Assembly (NCBI GenBank): GCA_035573675.1
Contig: DATMAB010000021.1
Span: 1 to 64,000, forward strand
Source: Terriglobales bacterium
GTDB taxonomy: Bacteria; Acidobacteriota; Terriglobia; Terriglobales; Acidobacteriaceae
Direction: 5' to 3'
DNA length: 64,000 bases
A program made the translations under genes and the position numbers. The notes beneath the pieces were generated by a model that was not told the origin of the DNA, made no database searches, and worked only from the letters and a program-made list of their open reading frames with translations. Positions 32,829-41,206 of this stretch are shown here, piece by piece (the stretch's first letter is position 1; every line of letters starts with the position of its first letter).

Positions 32829-33779
32829 ATGGTTGCTTGCCGGTTCCACCCAACGCCCAGACGCCTCCGCCGCGCTCTGCCGGCCTTGCTTGCGCTGCTC
32901 ATCCTGCCGGGGTGCCTGTTTCGTAGCCGCACCGTCGAGCGCCGGATGAGTTCAGCCGTGCTTCGCGAGGCCACGCTCGCCGAGCTGGTTGAGACCGTCA
33001 ACACCGAAGCCGCCCGCATCCAGACTCTGAATGCCACCGTGGACATCGCGCCGTCCGTGGGCGGTTCCCGGAAGGGCAAGGTCACCGATTTTCAAGACAT
33101 GCGCGGCTACATCTTGCTGCGCCAGCCGTCGACGCTGCGCATGATCGGCCTGTTCCCCATCCTGCGCAACACCGCCTTTGACATGGTGACCGACGGCGAG
33201 GAGTTCCGCCTCTCGATTCCCACCAGGAGCCGTTTCTACACCGGGCGCAACGACGCCCCGCCGGTCTCCAAGAAGTCCATCGAGAATCTTCGCCCGCGCC
33301 ACATCCTGGACGCGCTTTTGTTGCGCGCCATCGATCCCCAGCGGGAGATTGCGGTCCTGGAAGGCTCGACTGAGATCGTCCGCGACCCGAAAACGAAAAA
33401 AGAAGCAGACCAGCCCAACTACGTGGTCAACGTCATCCGCCGTAACGGCTCCGACTGGAAGCTCTCCCGCAAGATCTTCTTCAGCCGCGCCGACCTCCTG
33501 CCCTACCGCCAGGTCATCTACGATCCCGATGGGTCCGTCGCCACCGAGGCGGACTACGAGCGCATCACGGAGTACCACGGCGGCCGTTTCCCCGCCGTCA
33601 TCCACTTGTGGCGCCCCAAGGAGGAGTACGCCATCGTGCTTACCATGGTGAAGCTCAGCCTGAACCAGCCGCTGCGCGACGATCAGTTCGTGCTCCCGCA
33701 GCCCGCGGGCTACGAGCTTCGCCGCCTGGGCGAACCGACTCCGCCGGAAGAGACTAGGTCCGCGAGCCCGCCGCAGTAG
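32829..33779 (+). CDS. outer-membrane lipoprotein, LolA/LolB-like fold
   Basis: The 316-aa product has a lipobox (LLALLILPGC, acylated Cys near residue 29). It continues with beta strands and amphipathic helices (MRGYILLRQPSTLRMIGLFP, AFDMVTDGEEFRLSIPTRSR, YVVNVIRRNGSDWKLSRKIF) that look like DUF4292 or a LolB-like beta barrel. It is probably anchored in a membrane facing the periplasm. The length is normal for such lipoproteins. Upstream (32691-32828) only a TATACT box at 32711-32716 is notable. Confidence 0.7.
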   Translation: MVACRFHPTPRRLRRALPALLALLILPGCLFRSRTVERRMSSAVLREATLAELVETVNTEAARIQTLNATVDIAPSVGGSRKGKVTDFQDMRGYILLRQPSTLRMIGLFPILRNTAFDMVTDGEEFRLSIPTRSRFYTGRNDAPPVSKKSIENLRPRHILDALLLRAIDPQREIAVLEGSTEIVRDPKTKKEADQPNYVVNVIRRNGSDWKLSRKIFFSRADLLPYRQVIYDPDGSVATEADYERITEYHGGRFPAVIHLWRPKEEYAIVLTMVKLSLNQPLRDDQFVLPQPAGYELRRLGEPTPPEETRSASPPQ

Positions 33780-33860
33780 TCGCAGTGGTTGGTATGTCCT
33801 CGCGAGAGCGGGGGCCCTATGCGTGGTTGCAGCCAGGGGCGAGAACAGGGGGACGGTGCC

Positions 33861-34433
33861 CTACTGCGCCCCGCTGATCGTGATCTGGTAGATCAAGTCC
33901 GGCCGCGCATCGCCGCGCCAGTCCAGCACGTGGATGAAGACCGTGATTGTGCCGCCGGTCGTGTTCTGGAAGTCCAGGTGCGAGTTGCGGTTTTCTCCCA
34001 GACTGATGTCGTCATTGATGCAGGGATCATCGAAGTCACTGGGAGTCCCGTCCGGCGTGATCCCCAGCCCCGGAGGCGGACTGTCATCACCCGGGTCCTT
34101 GCAGGTAGTGAGCCGCGTTCCGCCACTGTTCACGATCTCGATCACGGGGTCGATTGGACTCGGGGGAGTCAACCCCGGCCCCACCACATCCACCGTCAGC
34201 GTGGCGCTCGCAGCCACGGACACCGAGTAGAAATCCTCATCCGGATCGGTCACGTCGATGGGATCGCCGAACGGGCTGATGGACGCACTGAAGGTCCCGT
34301 TGGAGAGCGGCGTCGCCGTTCCGATGCTGTCATTTCGCGACTGTGCCCGCGCCGGCGTGCTCGCTCCCGTGCACAGCGCGAGCGCCACAGCTGCCAGTAT
34401 CAGGATCCTCTGCCGACGCGAATTCATGGCCAT
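33861..34433 (-). CDS. secreted PPC-like domain protein (module copy A, gene 3)
   Basis: This 190-aa exported protein (signal peptide ILILAAVALALCTGASTPARAQ) consists of one beta domain resembling the bacterial pre-peptidase C-terminal fold. Landmarks are NGTFSASISPFGDP, DPDEDFYSVSVAASATLTVD, FDDPCINDDISLGENRNSH and VFIHVLDWRGDARPDL. It is the counterpart of the C-terminal 130 residues of the lipoprotein at 36600-37985, and nucleotide identity is also obvious in the last 120 bp. PPC domains often accompany secreted proteases. The gene lies 10 bp after the matrixin-like gene. Confidence 0.7.
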   Translation of the reverse strand: MAMNSRRQRILILAAVALALCTGASTPARAQSRNDSIGTATPLSNGTFSASISPFGDPIDVTDPDEDFYSVSVAASATLTVDVVGPGLTPPSPIDPVIEIVNSGGTRLTTCKDPGDDSPPPGLGITPDGTPSDFDDPCINDDISLGENRNSHLDFQNTTGGTITVFIHVLDWRGDARPDLIYQITISGAQ

Positions 34434-34442
34434 CCCTCCTCC

Positions 34443-35780
34443 TCACTCGCTGATAGTCTGCGCGCGACGCTTCTTGCCCCCTTCGAACGCGTCCAAACGT
34501 GGGTTCGTGCCCACCAGCACGATGTCGCCCGCATTGACCGTGCCGCCCGCCGCGACGGCAAAGGGCCCAGCCGCAGCCGGCGCTGTGCCCGGCATGGGAA
34601 TCGGGGGGTCCAGCGGGCCGACGCTCGAACCGCCGTCGAAGCCCGCATTGATGGACTCCACCTCGATCGTATAGCTGCCCGTCGGCACCGGAATCTCGAA
34701 CCGGCCGATGTCTGCGGTTTGTCGCGAACCGAAACTGTCTCCTCCCGTGTTGTCAGAGGCTCCGTTCAGATAGGGCGCCGCCGTCACGCTTTGCCCGGGG
34801 TTTCCCGTGAATTTGAACCCCGAAACCACCGAGACAGCGAACTTGCGATCCTGGTTTGTGCCTGTGTCCACCGGCCGTGCGATGACGTTCACTCCCTGCG
34901 CGTGCGTCATGGTGTCGCTGAAACGCACCGTCCCGGTCAGTGTCCCGTGCGTTCCCGCGAAGGTCGTACCCCCGCTCAACTGCGGATACAACCTTGATAT
35001 CCACGCGATGTCGTCCGTCGCCAGCGTCGCCATCTCAAGACTGACGAGAATCGGAAACATCGTTGGCAAACCGCTCTCGTCATCCGCCCCGCAGGTACCA
35101 AGACAGTTCACATTGATCTGCGAGTGGTCCAGCCCTGAGAAGTGCCCGAACTCGTGGATGAAGGCGGCGTTGAATTTTTCGTTCGATATGTCCGCCGGGT
35201 TGGGAATGGCCGCTCCGGGTGCGGTCACTCCATCCGTGAATAGGCCGTTCATCACGGCTTCGCCGCCCGTGATGCGTCCGGCGGAGTTGATACCACACGG
35301 CCCGGCAAAACCGATCACCGACTCGGTGTCCACCCCAAGATCATCGAAAATCCGTCCGTTCGCATCGTAGACAATAAAGCTCTGCGTGCTTTGCCCGCTC
35401 CCGCAGGCGTTCTCCAGCGCGGTCAACTCGGCGCCTGTGTCAACATCGCCGCCTGCGAAACCCGAAACTGCCGAGATGAAACCCGCGCGGCTATACGCGA
35501 TGTTTGAAGTCGCAACGTCCTGCCACACCTGAAACAGGCTGGCGACCCGCGTCCGCGTGGACATTTCGTCGTCTCCGGGCTGGGAGCTTAACGGCCCGTT
35601 GTCCGTCCGGTATTGGATCGCGGTTGCTGTATCCCACGTGAACGGCTGGCCCGCGACACCGAACGTCGGCCCGCCCACCCTCAGCGGGCCTCCCGCAGTC
35701 GCTGCAATGGGGAAGACCAGCAGCCACATTCCGGCTGCAGCCAGTCCGAACCAACCCCGATTGGAGAACCGCTCTCTCAT
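34443..35780 (-). CDS. matrixin-like secreted metalloprotease (module copy A, gene 2)
   Basis: The protein is 445 aa with a signal peptide (FGLAAAGMWLLVFPIAATAG). The zinc site FIHEFGHFSGLDHSQIN (HExxHxxGxxH) and the later LPTMFPILVSLEMATL form the metzincin signature with its Met-turn. A C-terminal carboxypeptidase-regulatory-like part (THGTLTGTVRFSDTMTHAQG, GSYTIEVESINAGFDGG) follows. The N-terminal segment GGPLRVGGPTFGVAGQPFTW is shared with the copy at 37982-39259. The active-site residues look intact. Substrate unknown. Confidence 0.85.
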   Translation of the reverse strand: MRERFSNRGWFGLAAAGMWLLVFPIAATAGGPLRVGGPTFGVAGQPFTWDTATAIQYRTDNGPLSSQPGDDEMSTRTRVASLFQVWQDVATSNIAYSRAGFISAVSGFAGGDVDTGAELTALENACGSGQSTQSFIVYDANGRIFDDLGVDTESVIGFAGPCGINSAGRITGGEAVMNGLFTDGVTAPGAAIPNPADISNEKFNAAFIHEFGHFSGLDHSQINVNCLGTCGADDESGLPTMFPILVSLEMATLATDDIAWISRLYPQLSGGTTFAGTHGTLTGTVRFSDTMTHAQGVNVIARPVDTGTNQDRKFAVSVVSGFKFTGNPGQSVTAAPYLNGASDNTGGDSFGSRQTADIGRFEIPVPTGSYTIEVESINAGFDGGSSVGPLDPPIPMPGTAPAAAGPFAVAAGGTVNAGDIVLVGTNPRLDAFEGGKKRRAQTISE

Positions 35781-35783
35781 CCC

Positions 35784-36404
35784 CTAGCGCCTGCCATGCA
35801 CCGATTGCTCGATGAGCGCTTCCAGGTCGGCCGCCGCCATCGGCGCTGCCCGGCCTTCCTCCAGCATCTTCTGCGTCGGCAGCGTGAGTTCCGGAAGCTT
35901 CGCCCGTAGCTGCTCCTGCATGCCGCGGAACAGCATGAAATTCCCCGCGCCATTCACGGCTACCTCCTGGCCGCTGCGGTCGCGATAGATGCGGAACCGG
36001 CCCTGCTCCATCCCCGCCAGCCCGGAGAGCCCGTAACGGTTGGGGCCGAATAGCATCAGCAGAACCTCGTCCCCTTTGCGATACCCGGCAGCATCCAGTT
36101 TGTCTCGTATGTCCCAGATGTACTGCCGGAAGGTATGGAACTGTTGCGCCTGTCCCTTGAGCGTCTTCTTGACCGCCAGCGTCACCACCAGCGTCTGCAT
36201 CTGCGGCTGGTCGGGATGTCTTTCCACCCGCGCGTGCACCACCGTGCCCCGCACGATCAGATCGGCCCTTTTCGTCAGCTCATTCAGGTTTCTGGGGATC
36301 GTAATGGCGCCGCGCTGCGCCTCGGCGGTGCCCGCCAGGCACACCAGCACCAGCAAGCTTTTCAGGAGTCCCCGTCCAGCTTTCGCGAGTGTGCTTCGTG
36401 CCAT
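35784..36404 (-). CDS. small exported protein of unknown function (module copy A, gene 1)
   Basis: The product is 206 aa from ATG 36404 with a signal peptide ending TAEAQ. The body shows a GxV...TLKG...GDE.LL...QGRF pattern (LIVRGTVVHARVERHPD, VVTLAVKKTLKGQ, GYRKGDEVLLMLFGPNRYGL, MEQGRFRIYRDRSGQE). I associate that pattern with exported proteins encoded next to matrixin-like proteases, but I cannot name a family. It is the paralogue of the gene at 39256-39879 and opens copy A of the three-gene module. Confidence 0.65.
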   Translation of the reverse strand: MARSTLAKAGRGLLKSLLVLVCLAGTAEAQRGAITIPRNLNELTKRADLIVRGTVVHARVERHPDQPQMQTLVVTLAVKKTLKGQAQQFHTFRQYIWDIRDKLDAAGYRKGDEVLLMLFGPNRYGLSGLAGMEQGRFRIYRDRSGQEVAVNGAGNFMLFRGMQEQLRAKLPELTLPTQKMLEEGRAAPMAAADLEALIEQSVHGRR

Positions 36405-36490
36405 GAACTGGTTAGTCCGCGCGACGGGGTCGCACGCGAGGAAAAGTCTTCGTATTCTTGGGTTCGGGCGGGAAAAAGTCAACTGCAAGC
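36405..36490 (-). promoter_or_regulatory. co-duplicated upstream region, copy A promoter
   Basis: On the minus strand TTGACT (36482-36477) precedes AAGAAT (36459-36454) with a 17-bp spacer. The block CGCGACGGGGTCGCACGCGA and neighbours matches the region upstream of copy B position by position. The whole transcription unit was therefore duplicated, not only the genes. Confidence 0.5.
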
Positions 36491-36599
36491 GCGCCCACGC
36501 TCGGGCCGCCGCTCAACAAACGGGTCCGGTACACCAAGCCGTCGTGGGGAGTGCTGTTTCACTCCTGCGGCCTGGCTCCGATGACTCAGCGGGACTCCG

Positions 36600-37985
36600 C
36601 TAGTTCGCGCCTGTAATGGTGATCTGGTAGCGCAGGTCCGGGCGCGCGTCGCCGCGCCAGTCCAGCACGTGGATGAAGACGGTCACCGTACTGCCGCTAC
36701 CGTTCTGGAATTCCAACTGCGAATCGAGTACGGACCCCAGGCTGATGTCGTCGTTGATGCAGGGATCATCGAACGCATCCGGCGTCGGATCGGCGTCGTC
36801 TCCCGGGTCCTTGCAAGTTGCCAGCCTGAAGCCGTTGCTGTCCAGGATTTCAATCACCGGGTCGATCGGACTGGGCGTTGGCAATCCCGGCCCCAGCACG
36901 CTCACCGATAACGTGCCTCCCGCGGCCACTGAAACCGCATAGAAGTCCTCATCGGGGTCGGTCACCGTGGCGGGGTCACCGAACGGACTGATGGACGCGT
37001 CAAAGGTCCCGTTGGAGAGTGCGGTTGCCGTCGCTGGAGAATTGTTCCGGCCCAGGCTGACGGCACTGACCGTGATCGAAAGCGATCGCGTACTCGTCGT
37101 GCCGCAAGCGTCGGTCACGGTGACGTCGAAATTCGCGGTTTCCACCGTGGTGGGTGTGCCACTGATCCGCCCGCTGGAGCCGTTCAGAGACAGCCCGGCA
37201 GGCAGCGCCCCGCCGGTCAGTGCGAAGGTCCGCGGGGGAACGCCGCCGGTCGCCTGCAACGTCACGCTGTACGCCGTGTTGACCATGACGCTTGGAAGCG
37301 CGCTGGTCGAAATGCTCAGCGGCGCCGCCGGGTTCACCGCAATCGTCAGCGACTGCGTGTCGGTCTTGGGCGTGGTCGCGGAATCGGTCACCTGCACCGT
37401 GAAGGTCCGGGTGGTCGAGGCACAGTCCGGCGTGCCGCTGATTACGCCCGTGCTCGCGCTCGGACCCGTCAATCCCGTGGGCAAGACGCCTGAACTCAAC
37501 GCCCAGGTATAGGGCGCGACCCCGCTCGTCGCCGCCAGCGTTTGGCTGTACGCCACCCCCCGCTGCGCGTCCGGTAGCGAGGTGGTTGTGATGTTCGGTG
37601 GCGGCGCCGGGTCGATGTTGATCGTGAGTTGCTGCGTGTCCGATCCCGTCGCGTCCATCACCCGCACGGTAAACGTCTGATCGTCGTTCGGATTGGTCGG
37701 CGTCCCGCTGATCACGCCGGTGCTGACGTTCAGGCTCAGTCCAGCGGGAAGCACTCCCGAAGAAACGCTCCATGTGCGGGTGCCCTGCCCTCCCGAAACC
37801 GTCAGAGTCTGGCTGTATGCAGCTCCTTCCGTCCCATTCGGCAGGCTGGTCGTCGTGATGCTGATGGGTGTGGGTTGAGGAGGAGACGTGGGAATGGAGT
37901 CGCTCCCTCCGCCGCAGCCGGACAACGCGAGCAACAGTCCAAGGCCGAAGACGGCGACCGCCACGACTTGGGTCAGGCGTTTCAC
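36600..37985 (-). CDS. lipoprotein with Ig-like repeats and PPC-like domain (module copy B, gene 3)
   Basis: This is a 461-aa protein. The lipobox LLALSGC predicts acylation at about residue 24. Three tandem putative-Ig domains follow (about 40-130, 130-220 and 220-310), each with a GxAYSQTL / LPxGL / TGVISGTP or GRISGTP pattern. The C-terminal 140 residues are the PPC-like domain shared with copy A. Copy A lacks both the lipobox and the Ig domains, so the two paralogues differ in location. The start overlaps the protease gene by ATGA. The Ig repeats may act as a surface spacer. Confidence 0.75.
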   Translation of the reverse strand: MKRLTQVVAVAVFGLGLLLALSGCGGGSDSIPTSPPQPTPISITTTSLPNGTEGAAYSQTLTVSGGQGTRTWSVSSGVLPAGLSLNVSTGVISGTPTNPNDDQTFTVRVMDATGSDTQQLTINIDPAPPPNITTTSLPDAQRGVAYSQTLAATSGVAPYTWALSSGVLPTGLTGPSASTGVISGTPDCASTTRTFTVQVTDSATTPKTDTQSLTIAVNPAAPLSISTSALPSVMVNTAYSVTLQATGGVPPRTFALTGGALPAGLSLNGSSGRISGTPTTVETANFDVTVTDACGTTSTRSLSITVSAVSLGRNNSPATATALSNGTFDASISPFGDPATVTDPDEDFYAVSVAAGGTLSVSVLGPGLPTPSPIDPVIEILDSNGFRLATCKDPGDDADPTPDAFDDPCINDDISLGSVLDSQLEFQNGSGSTVTVFIHVLDWRGDARPDLRYQITITGAN

Positions 37986-39259
37986 GGCCCCTCGAACTGG
38001 TCAAAGCGCGGGTCGGTGCCGAGCAGGACCACATCTCCGACAGACACCGTCATTCCGGCTCCCACCGCAAAAGGTCCTGCCGCGGCCGGTGCCGCGCCCG
38101 GCATGGGGATCGGCGGTGATAACGGGCCCACGCTCGAGCCACCCTCAAATCCGGGATCGATGCTCTCCACTTCTACGGTGTAGTCGCCCGCCGGCACCGG
38201 GATCTCGAACAGCCCAATGTCGCCCGTCTGCCGCGATCCGAAGTCGCTGCCTCCCGTGTTGTCGTCAGTTCCACCGAGGTAATTCGCGGTCACGCTCTGC
38301 CCCGGATTGGCTGTGAACTTGAACCCGGAAACCACCGACACCGCGAACCTGCGGTCTTCGTTCGACCCGGTGTCCACGCGGCGCGCGATCACGTTCACGC
38401 CTTGCGCGTGGGTCATGCCGTCGCTGAAGCGCACCACTCCGGTCAGCGTCCCGTGCGTCCCTGCGAACGTCGTGCCGCCGGTCGTCTGCGGATACAACCT
38501 CGAAATCCATGCGACGTCATCCGTCGCTAGCGTGGCCATCTCCGAGCTGAGGAGAAAGGGGAACATCGTGGGCAGACCTTGCAAGTCAGCCGCTCCACAC
38601 GGAGAAGCTGTCAGACAATTCAGATTGACCTGCGAGTGGTCCAGTCCGGAAAGGTGCCCGAATTCGTGGATGAAGGCAGCGTCGAATTCAGCGCTCGTCA
38701 ACTCGCCGTTGGCCGCGTTGCCGTCGATCCACTTGCCGTTCAGCGCGGCTTCCCCGGAGATGATGCGCCCCGCAGCGTTCACCAGGCAGGGGCCGGCAAA
38801 ACCGATCACGTCGGGGTCAAAGCCCAGGTCCGTGAAGACGCTCCCGTCGGTATCGAAGATGATGGGATTCTGTGTGGGCGGGTTCGCATTGCACGTGCCT
38901 TCGGCGGCGTCGAACTCTGCCGCTGTGCTCACATCCCCATCGGCCACGCCCTGGATTGCGCCCGCGCGGTTGTAACCGATGTTCGCCGTGGCCACATTCT
39001 CCCAGACGTTGAACATGCTCTCCACCCGCGCGATTGCCTGCGCGTTGGTAAGCGACCCCAGCGTGCCGCCATCCGTCCGATACTGGATCTCGCTTGTCGT
39101 GTCCCATGTGAAGGGCGCCCCCTCCACACCAAAAGTGGGGCCGCCCACCAGAATAGGACCGCCCGCCATCACCGGCTGTGGCAGAGCCAACCCCAGCGAC
39201 ATCAGCACGACCACGGCCCGCTGCGCGTATCCACATCGACTTGTGCCCTGCACCATCAT
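37982..39259 (-). CDS. matrixin-like secreted metalloprotease (module copy B, gene 2)
   Basis: This is a 425-aa protein with a signal peptide (VVLMSLGLALPQPVMAGG). Zinc-site FIHEFGHLSGLDHSQVN and Met-turn LPTMFPFLLSSEMATL are conserved. It aligns along its whole length with the protease at 34443-35780, including RFSDxMTHAQGVNVIAR and PIPMPGxAPAAAGPFAV. The start overlaps the stop of the small exported gene by ATGA, as does its stop with the lipoprotein start, so all three genes are coupled. Confidence 0.85.
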   Translation of the reverse strand: MMVQGTSRCGYAQRAVVVLMSLGLALPQPVMAGGPILVGGPTFGVEGAPFTWDTTSEIQYRTDGGTLGSLTNAQAIARVESMFNVWENVATANIGYNRAGAIQGVADGDVSTAAEFDAAEGTCNANPPTQNPIIFDTDGSVFTDLGFDPDVIGFAGPCLVNAAGRIISGEAALNGKWIDGNAANGELTSAEFDAAFIHEFGHLSGLDHSQVNLNCLTASPCGAADLQGLPTMFPFLLSSEMATLATDDVAWISRLYPQTTGGTTFAGTHGTLTGVVRFSDGMTHAQGVNVIARRVDTGSNEDRRFAVSVVSGFKFTANPGQSVTANYLGGTDDNTGGSDFGSRQTGDIGLFEIPVPAGDYTVEVESIDPGFEGGSSVGPLSPPIPMPGAAPAAAGPFAVGAGMTVSVGDVVLLGTDPRFDQFEGP

Positions 39260-39879
39260 TGCCCTCGCGTTCTCTGCAGCTCCAGGATCAGATCGCGCAA
39301 GTCGGCGACGGCGATGGGCCCGCGGGGCTGCTGTCGCACCAGACTTGCCATGCGTGGGCTGAGCTTCACGCCTTTCTTCACCAACTGCGTTTCCAGATCG
39401 CGGAACAGTCCGTGGTTGCCGAAACCGTTCACCGCCACTTCCCGGCCGCTGCGGTCGCGGAAGATGCGGAACCGTCCCTGCTCCATGCCCGCTGGGCTCG
39501 TCAGCCCGTATTGGCTCACCGGGTTCATCAACAGCAGTAGCTCCTGGCCTTTGCGGTAACCGGCCGCATCCTGCCGATCACGGAAGTCCCAGATGTACTG
39601 CCGGAACGTGTACCTCGACCCCGCCTTCCCCTTTAGCGTCTGGGTGACGTGTAGGGTCACCACAATGGTGTTCAGGTTTGTCAGCTGCGGGTGCTTCTCG
39701 ACCCGTGCGCTCGCCACGCGGCCGCGTACGATCACGGCCGATCGCCGGGTCAGTTCGTCCAGGTTTCTGGGAAGTGTAATGGCCCCACGCTGCGCCGCCG
39801 CGGTGCCGGCCAGGCACACCAGAACCCACCAGCCCGTCAGGATTCCCCGTCCAGTTTTCGCGACTAACTTCCGTGCCAT
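39256..39879 (-). CDS. small exported protein of unknown function (module copy B, gene 1)
   Basis: This 207-aa protein has a signal peptide ending TAAAQ. It is clearly paralogous to the gene at 35784 (VIVRGRVASARVEKHPQL, LHVTQTLKGKAGSRYTFRQY, GYRKGQELLLLMNPVSQYGL, MEQGRFRIFRDRSGREVAVN). The first residues (MARKLVAKTGRGILTGWWVL) also match copy A. Unknown function; membership in a protease module is the only clue. Confidence 0.65.
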   Translation of the reverse strand: MARKLVAKTGRGILTGWWVLVCLAGTAAAQRGAITLPRNLDELTRRSAVIVRGRVASARVEKHPQLTNLNTIVVTLHVTQTLKGKAGSRYTFRQYIWDFRDRQDAAGYRKGQELLLLMNPVSQYGLTSPAGMEQGRFRIFRDRSGREVAVNGFGNHGLFRDLETQLVKKGVKLSPRMASLVRQQPRGPIAVADLRDLILELQRTRGQ

Positions 39880-39965
39880 AGCTCGGTTCTTCCGCGTAAC
39901 GGGGTTGGATGCGAGGGGAAGTCTTTTAGTTTTTTGGCCGGTCGGGCGAAAGTCAACCCCGGGCC
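39880..39965 (-). promoter_or_regulatory. co-duplicated upstream region, copy B promoter
   Basis: TTGACT (39956-39951) with AAAACT (39933-39928) on the minus strand, spacer 17 bp. The surrounding sequence aligns with 36405-36490. The -35 is identical in both copies; the -10 has diverged. Confidence 0.5.
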
Positions 39966-40096
39966 GCGCGGGCGTCCGGGGACCGGCCTAGACCCGGTCT
40001 AGGGAGGCCTACCGCCACCCCCCGACTCGTCTCTGGCCGCTGACGCCTGACCACTGACGGCTGCCCGGACGGCTCATTGCTACAATGGTCTTTCCC

Positions 40097-41206
40097 ATGA
40101 TGAACAAGATGATTGTCGCCAACCTGGCGCACCGGCCCATCCGGTCCGTCATCAGCATCGTGGCCATTGCGGTTGAAGTGACGCTGATCCTGGTGATCGT
40201 CGGGTTGTCGCTCGGCATCCTGAACGACTCCAAGACCCGCCAGGCCGGCATCGGCGCCGATGTGATGGTCCGCCCGCCCGGCTCTTCCGCCCTCATCGGA
40301 ATCAGCGGCGCGCCCGTCTCCGTCAAGGTGGCCGACGTGCTCGCCAAGGTGCCGCACGTCGTCGCCGTGGCCCCGGTGGTCACGCAGATTTCCACCGGTG
40401 GAGGCAGCGTTGAAGTGCTCTACGGCATCGACCTCGCGAGCTTCGAATCTATGGGAGGGAAGTTCCACTACATGGCCGGCGGGCCGTTCGAGGGTCCTGA
40501 CGACATCATCGTAGACGATTTCTTCGCGGCCTCCCGCAATGTCCAAGTGGGCCAGACCATCGAGGTGCTGAATCACCCCTTCCGCGTGGCAGGCATCGTC
40601 GAACACGGCAAGGGCGCGCGCAAGTTCATGCCCATGGCGACGGTGCAGGAGCTGGTCGGCTCCCAGGGCAAAGCCTCCATCTTCTATCTCAAGCTCGACG
40701 ATCCGGCGAACGCCGCCGCCGTCGCCGCCGCCATCAAGAAAATCCCCGGCATGGAGAGCTACGGCGTCCAGTCCATGCGCGAATGGCTCTCGTACATGAC
40801 GCCCGAGAACCTGCCCGGCTTCTCCACCTTCATCCGTGTGGTCATCGGAGTGGCCGTCTGTATTGGATTCATCGTCATCTTTCAGTCCATGTACACCGCG
40901 GTGATGGAGCGCACGCGCGAGATCGGCATCCTCAAATCGATGGGCGCCTCCAGAGGCTACATCGTCAACGTCATCGTGCGCGAGACGTTGCTCCTGGCGC
41001 TGGCCGGGGTCGGGGTAGGCATCCTGCTCAGCTTTGCCGCCAAGGAAGGTATCCTGAAGGCCTTCCCAACCCTGCGCGTGGAGATCGCCGCCGGGTGGGT
41101 GCTGCGCGCCACCATCATTGCGCTGGCCGGCTCCGTGCTCGGCGCGCTCTATCCCGCCATCAAGGCCGCTCAGAAGGACCCCGTCGAAGCTTTGGCCTAT
41201 GAGTGA
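40097..41206 (+). CDS. ABC transporter permease (MacB/FtsX type)
   Basis: The product is about 369 aa from ATG 40097, although the frame opens at 40085. One N-terminal membrane helix (SVISIVAIAVEVTLILVIVG) is followed by a periplasmic MacB-PCD-like domain (VVAVAPVVTQISTGGGSVEV) and a C-terminal FtsX domain with three helices, including VMERTREIGILKSMGASRGY, the conserved coupling helix. No ATP-binding gene lies next to it, so its ATPase is encoded elsewhere or lost. A TACAAT box lies 10 nt before the start. Confidence 0.85.
   Translation: MMNKMIVANLAHRPIRSVISIVAIAVEVTLILVIVGLSLGILNDSKTRQAGIGADVMVRPPGSSALIGISGAPVSVKVADVLAKVPHVVAVAPVVTQISTGGGSVEVLYGIDLASFESMGGKFHYMAGGPFEGPDDIIVDDFFAASRNVQVGQTIEVLNHPFRVAGIVEHGKGARKFMPMATVQELVGSQGKASIFYLKLDDPANAAAVAAAIKKIPGMESYGVQSMREWLSYMTPENLPGFSTFIRVVIGVAVCIGFIVIFQSMYTAVMERTREIGILKSMGASRGYIVNVIVRETLLLALAGVGVGILLSFAAKEGILKAFPTLRVEIAAGWVLRATIIALAGSVLGALYPAIKAAQKDPVEALAYE

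Follow-up and report, generated by a model that had tools for sequence, protein, structure and literature searches.

Matrixin-type proteases and candidate TIMP-fold partner proteins encoded side by side in Acidobacteriota

A 64,000-nucleotide stretch of DNA from a Terriglobales bacterium (the window) carries two consecutive modules on its minus strand, B (39879-36600) and A (36404-33861), each encoding a small exported protein (gene 1), a secreted matrixin-like protease (gene 2) and a third protein (gene 3). This arrangement raises the question of what gene 1 does for, or to, the protease that it accompanies. The initial annotation had suggested a dedicated partner, inhibitor or chaperone, and knew of no description of such a system.

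Two tandem modules and the size of the unit

The features of the locus are as follows.

Upstream segment of copy B, 39885..39957, minus strand: homologous to the copy A upstream segment, contains TTGACTTT
Gene 1 of copy B, 39256..39879, minus strand: exported protein of predicted TIMP/NTR fold, 207 aa
Gene 2 of copy B, 37982..39259, minus strand: secreted matrixin of 425 aa with HEFGHLSGLDH and a Met-turn
Gene 3 of copy B, 36600..37985, minus strand: begins with GTG and carries the lipobox LSGC, three Ig domains of the He_PIG type and a tail weakly similar to PPC
Upstream segment of copy A, 36410..36483, minus strand: homologous to the copy B upstream segment, contains TTGACTTT
Gene 1 of copy A, 35784..36404, minus strand: partner of putative TIMP/NTR type, 206 aa, 58.6% identity to copy B
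Gene 2 of copy A, 34443..35780, minus strand: secreted matrixin of 445 aa with HEFGHFSGLDH and a Met-turn, scoring below the PF00413 cut-off
Gene 3 of copy A, 33861..34433, minus strand: short exported protein of 190 aa, free of Ig domains and resembling PPC at a score below the cut-off

As the initial annotation had proposed, the locus is a tandem duplication: six minus-strand open reading frames follow each other twice in the order gene 1, protease, gene 3, and the nucleotide alignment of both copies that had been suggested as a check (blastn) returned three long blocks of ~72% DNA identity (E 3e-71 to 1e-133). All three proteins are indeed paralogous between the copies, with protein identities of 58.6% for gene 1, 65.6% for gene 2 and 69.3% for the tail of gene 3. 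Comparison of A with B gave dN/dS values of ~0.34, 0.19 and 0.21 for genes 1, 2 and 3 at a dS of 1.1-1.4, which is near saturation; on these values both copies look constrained. In copy B, the start of gene 2 overlaps the stop of gene 1 by 4 nt, and gene 3 overlaps gene 2 by another 4 nt. Both gene 2 sequences carry HExxHxxGxxH and the Met-turn LPTMFP, in agreement with their description as matrixin-like, and copy B alone passed the PF00413 cut-off of 24 bits (27.3 bits; 18.4 bits for copy A). In the same genome, single-protein queries found no gene 1 and no such protease beyond the two of each in the window.

The duplication extends upstream of the genes. Local alignment of the two upstream regions scored 49 versus a maximum of 32 in 300 single-base shuffles, so the claim that this sequence was duplicated together with its TTGACTTT box stood up to formal alignment; the homology spans ~75 nt, includes the box and ends 5 nt before the start codon. 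A sigma-70 scan of positions 33300-40300 found one site (before copy A only) versus 0.8 expected, leaving the box without promoter support, and a promoter and terminator scan did not rise above shuffles.

Gene 3 of copy B is, as annotated, a putative lipoprotein with three Ig-like repeats: He_PIG matches it in three stretches (E 5.9e-39), and inspection by eye shows a lipobox, LSGC. Its labelling as a PPC-domain protein fared less well, since both gene 3 copies resemble the domain at scores below the cut-off (16.8 and 18.2 versus 25.9 bits). The idea of a complete three-gene module did not generalize: the gene 3 profile matched 8 of the 64 non-window loci examined with it (L033, L034, L041, L042, L044, L046, L047 and L050). 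The core unit is thus two genes, with gene 3 as a local accessory. He_PIG domains were found in gene 3 of the relatives L042, L044, L046, L047 and L050, and lipobox-like starts, by eye, in L044, L046, L047, L050, L033 and L034. Because the Ig-bearing form of copy B is common in these relatives, the short gene 3 of copy A looks derived, as does that of a same-genus genome (G025). The proposed split into a surface-anchored version (B) and a released version (A) is possible, and would reflect the apparently derived gene 3 of copy A.

The same-genus genome G025 (locus L041) carries just one module, at the corresponding site and with the same genes on either side. The six flanking genes show protein identities of 87-97% to those of the window; we take the shared neighbours to be MltG, an FtsX-type permease, rplM, rpsI and rpsB. 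The G025 module is a mosaic: it resembles B in gene 1 and over the 5' half of gene 2, and A from the 3' part of gene 2 through the intergenic stretch to gene 3. The simplest account is that the tandem, which is probably old, was present in the ancestor and that recombination within gene 2 reduced it to one copy in G025. Alternatively, the mosaic could stem from gene conversion in the window genome.

Predicted fold of gene 1 and its linkage to matrixins

Gene 1 had no Pfam or NCBIfam match above E 0.03. An AlphaFold2 model of its mature domain, computed from a 6-sequence alignment, reached a pLDDT of 83.5 and a pTM of 0.82, and its best PDB matches in Foldseek were agrin NtA (E 2.1e-4), the PCOLCE NTR domain (5.9e-4) and TIMP-2 (8.4e-4), with SSB-type OB folds lower in the list at low TM-scores and with poor superpositions. 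VIA, used as a second look at Foldseek's own list and with best Z of 7-8 typical for models without a clear match, placed N-TIMP-3 in its TACE complex on top (Z 9.5, rmsd 2.8, 115 of 121 residues aligned), followed by NtA (9.1-9.3) and N-TIMP-1 (9.0). All 50 entries that it listed were TIMP, NtA, PCOLCE NTR or C-terminal domains of complement C3, C4, C5 or CVF, the last presumably also NTR-type. It is the uniformity of this list that makes the case for a TIMP/NTR fold: gene 1 is predicted to be an OB barrel of the N-TIMP kind. A viral structure library held no match to the model at E<=1e-3, many of the entries listed being SSB-like.

Sequence searches of PDB chains with profiles built from 40 gene 1 proteins and from 10 class B proteins gave nothing relevant, and Pfam scans of the same members found no TIMP or NTR model in either set (NtA in 1/40 gene 1 members, at E 0.25). 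DUF4131, which we take to be an OB-type domain, appeared in 3/40 gene 1 members (best E 2.6e-4). Kinship with metazoan TIMPs was not detected by sequence in these searches of PDB chains and Pfam. The gene 1 signal is of AxA type and has no lipobox (by eye), and the mature N-terminus of copy B is probably QRGAITLP, with cleavage placed by eye after AxA. The mature domain of neither copy contains a cysteine and hence neither has the Cys1-x-Cys3 of TIMPs; the absence of TIMP's Cys1 chemistry is a point against inhibition.

Gene 1 relatives were found in 53/150 genomes of the family and, with a 40-sequence profile and 8 candidates scored per genome, in at least 194/396 genomes of the phylum. The initial annotation would have been refuted by gene 1 occurring mostly without a metzincin neighbour, and the loci examined show the opposite. 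In the family set, which comprises 60 of the 62 non-window gene 1 places (G010:C128, which has stops, and G028:C10 left out), 58/60 loci show a same-strand matrixin-fold gene downstream of gene 1, with at most 407 nt between the gene 1 and protease profile matches; the exceptions are L078, at a contig end, and L048, in which gene 1 is broken and a protease is missing. For the phylum, loci were drawn from matches listed down to about E 1e-18, leaving out L101, L109 and L114 as the window itself or duplicates. In the best-scoring phylum set, 27/27 loci adjoin a matrixin-fold gene (two of these same-family), and the lower-scoring set of 20 comprises 17 adjacent pairs, one fusion, one cut locus and one (L169) without protease. 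Natural fusions, which occur elsewhere in the phylum, were collected from 20 loci chosen for long open frames, in which 20/22 NTR open reading frames also hold the protease (one is adjacent, one cut), a figure that, given this choice, is not a rate. The two genes overlap by 4 nt in 22/24 active-motif pairs versus 5/34 others (starts chosen mechanically).

The pair recurs outside the phylum, in L035 (Nitrospirales) and in two Pseudoalteromonas megaplasmids, where its members are annotated as hypothetical proteins and the downstream proteins, which contain HEFGHAMNMSHSQ or HEFGHAINMSHSQ, hit the matrixin profile at 1e-50 and 3e-45. In the window's own genome, a profile search gave two weak partial matches (E 6.9e-6 and 1.2e-3, ~77 of 196 positions) with no matrixin near either, indicating that some NTR-like domains lie away from metzincins. 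Searches that used the protease as bait found four loci, each with gene 1 upstream. The 58/60 family loci together with the natural fusions uphold the proposal that gene 1 is a dedicated partner of the protease, and we are highly confident of both its predicted fold and this partnership.

The reverse test covered 30 PF00413 loci from 119 phylum genomes, of which 19 have an NTR domain upstream or fused. The other 11 have no NTR partner, an observation that runs against the best explanation given below. The idea that the NTR domain replaces a matrixin prodomain was dropped, because the NTR-free loci also have no obvious extra prodomain: HExxH lies only 157-197 residues into the open frame in 8/11 of them, and 228-314 in the other three. 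The complex of gene 1 and protease, for which structure modelling had been suggested, was approached through a read-through fusion of gene 1A and gene 2A; the model was poor (pLDDT 50.2, pTM 0.35), uninformative on the interface, and was rejected.

Degenerate proteases and the N-terminus of gene 1

Of the 129 partner proteins compared, which include both window copies, 86 have the zinc ligands and the Glu intact, another 40 are degenerate, and 3 are unaligned at the motif. In the dead clade, HExxHxxGxxH has become RxxGRxxGLxWSQ: across the 40 degenerate partners, the first His is replaced by Arg in 39, the second by Arg in 31 and the third by Trp in 37, and the Gly is retained in 40/40, as is the Met of the Met-turn in each of the 38 proteins alignable at that position. 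The window's family supplies 38 of the 40, most uncut ones are 900-1230 aa long, and TIG and Big_1 matches were found in all three that were scanned. In a tree of 57 of 110 sequences, the 15 dead family members sampled make up a single clade with 100/100 support that lies within the active sequences, and L151 is an independent dead case. On the sequences, the dead-protease contrast thus appears to be in essence one evolutionary event. Since these proteases lost all zinc ligands and the pair persists, the complex must there serve another use, perhaps at the surface, as the Ig-like TIG and Big_1 domains would suggest. That the dead clade keeps its partner is unpredicted by pure inhibition. The available part of a pseudopeptidase review (PMC11266112) gives no account of bacterial pseudo-matrixins.

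Nine phylum pairs without HExxHxxGxx[HD] were tried as a further dead control (0.28, three pairs). This control was dropped because L120, L124, L126, L167 and L170 keep all zinc ligands and replace the Gly only (L120, labelled dead by pattern, reads HEIGHFLSLDH), and L112 and L130 fall in the family's own dead clade; the phylum thus offers no clean second dead group for comparison.

In active pairs, the segment of gene 1 that follows the signal peptide (cleavage by eye) is conserved and lies at a near-fixed distance from the first strand, with the motif QRGA[IL]T in most class A and TT[VI]xPxS in most class B proteins. Mean pairwise identity over these 12 residues and over the core was 0.56 and 0.59 in class A (n=10, both window copies included), 0.45 and 0.49 in class B (n=12), and 0.10 and 0.47 in dead class C (n=38), which corresponds to N-terminus-to-core ratios of 0.94, 0.92 and 0.22. 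At a core identity of 0.5, N-terminal identity was 0.38 in class A (11 pairs), 0.50 in class B (30) and 0.10 in class C (247). Other borders and bootstrapping, with L049 left out, gave the same contrast, and a control segment over the following helix showed a far smaller gap (0.71, 0.95 and 0.57). At the phylum level, again at a core identity of 0.5, N-terminal conservation was weaker (0.37 in adjacent active pairs, 0.24 in fusions). The N-terminal constraint of gene 1 tracks protease activity, a strong correlation rather than a proof because the dead clade is in essence one event. By analogy with TIMP and AprI, though minus TIMP's Cys1, the constraint fits inhibition by an N-terminus lodged in the active-site cleft.

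Gene 1 as a candidate inhibitor and its known counterparts

Starting from the observed homology, gene order, overlap, linkage, natural fusions and N-terminal constraint and from the predicted fold, we infer a model that extends from export route and binding to inhibition, cleft or zinc contact and the timing of release. Each module would be a protease plus dedicated-partner unit, made of an exported gene 1 protein of predicted TIMP/NTR fold and a secreted matrixin. The partners would be made together, with gene 1 first and, in most active pairs, its stop overlapping the protease start; they would be exported separately and would bind each other. The processed N-terminus of gene 1 (QRGA..) would most likely enter the active-site cleft and inhibit the protease, and a cysteine-free N-terminus placing its alpha-amine on the zinc would fit TIMP and AprI alike. 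Inhibitor, already among the initial suggestions, is our best single guess from the TIMP-like predicted fold and the N-terminus test, and we consider inhibition through the processed N-terminus reasonably probable.

Several other functions were weighed. That gene 1 precedes and overlaps the protease gene, supplies the N-terminal domain of the fusions and has been retained beside dead proteases would also suit an export or folding chaperone of the matrixin fold with no inhibitory role; a chaperone gives no reason, however, for the mature N-terminus to lose constraint together with the zinc site while the core stays conserved, and we regard it as unlikely. If gene 1 were a targeting or substrate-binding subunit like the laminin-binding NtA of agrin, with the protease or pseudoprotease as effector or scaffold, it would go unexplained why the N-terminus is conserved, at a nearly constant spacing from the signal peptide, only where the partner is active. 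NtA is among the closest folds, and the three dead partners examined carry TIG and Big_1 domains; even so, this function seems distinctly improbable.

Still less credible is gene 1 as mainly a substrate, trimmed or released by the protease, as excerpts of PMC8235301 report for Listeria Mtz/Tim: this described metzincin/TIMP-like pair works in that way, whereas gene 1 here has by eye neither a lipobox nor a long N-terminal region, and dead partners are common in the family. A generic OB-fold protein, next to a protease by operon chance, could account for the SSB-type OB folds in the Foldseek list, at low TM-scores, and for the two weak NTR-like matches without a matrixin nearby in the window's genome. 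Against this stand the 58/60 and 27/27 linkage, the fusions and the recurrence outside the phylum, and we give it practically no credence; in our view the linkage counts already refute it.

Inhibition by gene 1, the reading we prefer, has counterparts in known systems, described here from the accessible parts of the cited papers. TIMPs, a family expressed in all Metazoa (PMC9409782), inhibit through their N-terminal segment, with Cys1 binding zinc (PMC9409782, PMC7290391) and the mature Cys1-x-Cys3 chelating it (PMC9409782). The module resembles TIMP/MMP in the predicted TIMP/NTR fold of the partner, the matrixin-type protease and the implicated N-terminal segment, and differs in having no Cys1-x-Cys3, no mature cysteine and adjacent or fused genes. 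AprI, mentioned in PMC8235301 and PMC4334185, inhibits the secreted metzincin AprA by a zinc-NH2 coordinative bond, according to a title cited in PMC4334185; such a dedicated inhibitor coordinating the zinc of a secreted metzincin is the mechanism proposed here.

In Listeria, too, a secreted metzincin (Mtz) adjoins a TIMP-like protein (Tim), which Mtz appears to cleave (PMC8235301). According to the same excerpts, the protease gene comes first there, Tim is a lipoprotein and the pair is phage-associated, whereas here the partner gene comes first, gene 1 has no lipobox by eye and the flanks include ribosomal protein genes. Fused and dead-protease versions are further differences, gene 1 and Tim being compared by description. 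No phage or mobile-element association was found here: the six flanking genes are conserved in the congener, and a tblastn search with copy B gene 1 found no match in 50,697 phage records. In Pseudomonas aeruginosa, BamI is encoded beside and co-transcribed with the metzincin Mep72 (PA2782-PA2783), forms a complex with it and relieves its toxicity in Escherichia coli (PMC4334185). Here, likewise, the partner gene adjoins the metzincin gene, on the same strand and overlapping in copy B; in contrast, BamI reportedly contains regions for which a natively unfolded state is predicted (PMC4334185), again a comparison by description. The initial statement that no such system was known thus needs qualification, since Mtz-Tim and BamI-Mep72 are of this kind in the available text of PMC8235301 and PMC4334185. 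As far as searches of the open-licence literature show, the new elements are the gene order relative to Mtz-Tim, the conserved but cysteine-free N-terminus, the existence of fusions and of a dead clade, and the breadth of the family.

The module pairing may be a bacterial counterpart of the animal TIMP/protease system. As a plausible but tentative generalization, bacteria would have an old, general MMP-TIMP-type system in which a TIMP-fold inhibitor, encoded as a neighbour gene or as an N-terminal domain, silences matrixins via a processed N-terminus that has no Cys1; one clade would have turned into a dead, perhaps surface-located complex whose inhibitor N-terminus decayed. If true, the TIMP-matrixin partnership either predates animals or arose twice, and the origin of the pairing becomes directly testable with a bacterial family that shares the predicted fold and, in the loci examined, almost always adjoins a matrixin or is fused to one. 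The dead-protease clade provides a natural control that separates inhibition from complex formation, a function is suggested for the proteins annotated as hypothetical in the two Pseudoalteromonas plasmid records, and cysteine-free scaffolds for metzincin inhibitors would be on offer.

Metzincin motifs beside gene 1

Copy A gene 2, the secreted matrixin at window 34443-35780 (-), matched NF041905 (MXAN_2677/MXAN_2678 myxosortase-dependent metalloprotease) weakly, with 16.5 bits against 250. In metzincins paired with gene 1, the exported protein with a predicted TIMP/NTR fold, the motif Gly was replaced by Asn or Ser at L035:4992-6249 (Nitrospirales), L120, L124, L126, L167, and L170 (for example, HEFGHYMNLDHSQ); all three His residues were retained, as was the Glu. 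The Gly was also replaced (HEFGHxxNMSHSQ) in two Pseudoalteromonas megaplasmid pairs, both annotated as hypothetical:

L201:3896-7140, NTR gene and metzincin
L202:3956-7129, NTR gene and metzincin

Pseudo-matrixins, with a degenerate zinc-ligand motif, adjoined or were fused to gene 1 at 36 loci within L052-L100 and at L112, L130, L145, and L151; in nearly all of them (exceptions, L145 and L151), HExxHxxGxxH was changed to RxxGRxxGLxWSQ.

NTR matches without a neighbouring matrixin

At L048:6584-7227, gene 1 was broken into two ORF pieces and no protease gene followed it; this unit may be decaying. The NTR profile also matched two other places in the window's genome (L204:1222-2487 and L205:1429-2505), weakly and over part of its length, with no matrixin close to either.

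Recurrence of tandem units

Locus L133 carried two fused NTR-metzincin ORFs in tandem:

L133:3792-6284, fused NTR-metzincin ORF
L133:6293-8501, fused NTR-metzincin ORF

Tandem duplication of the unit recurs elsewhere in the phylum.
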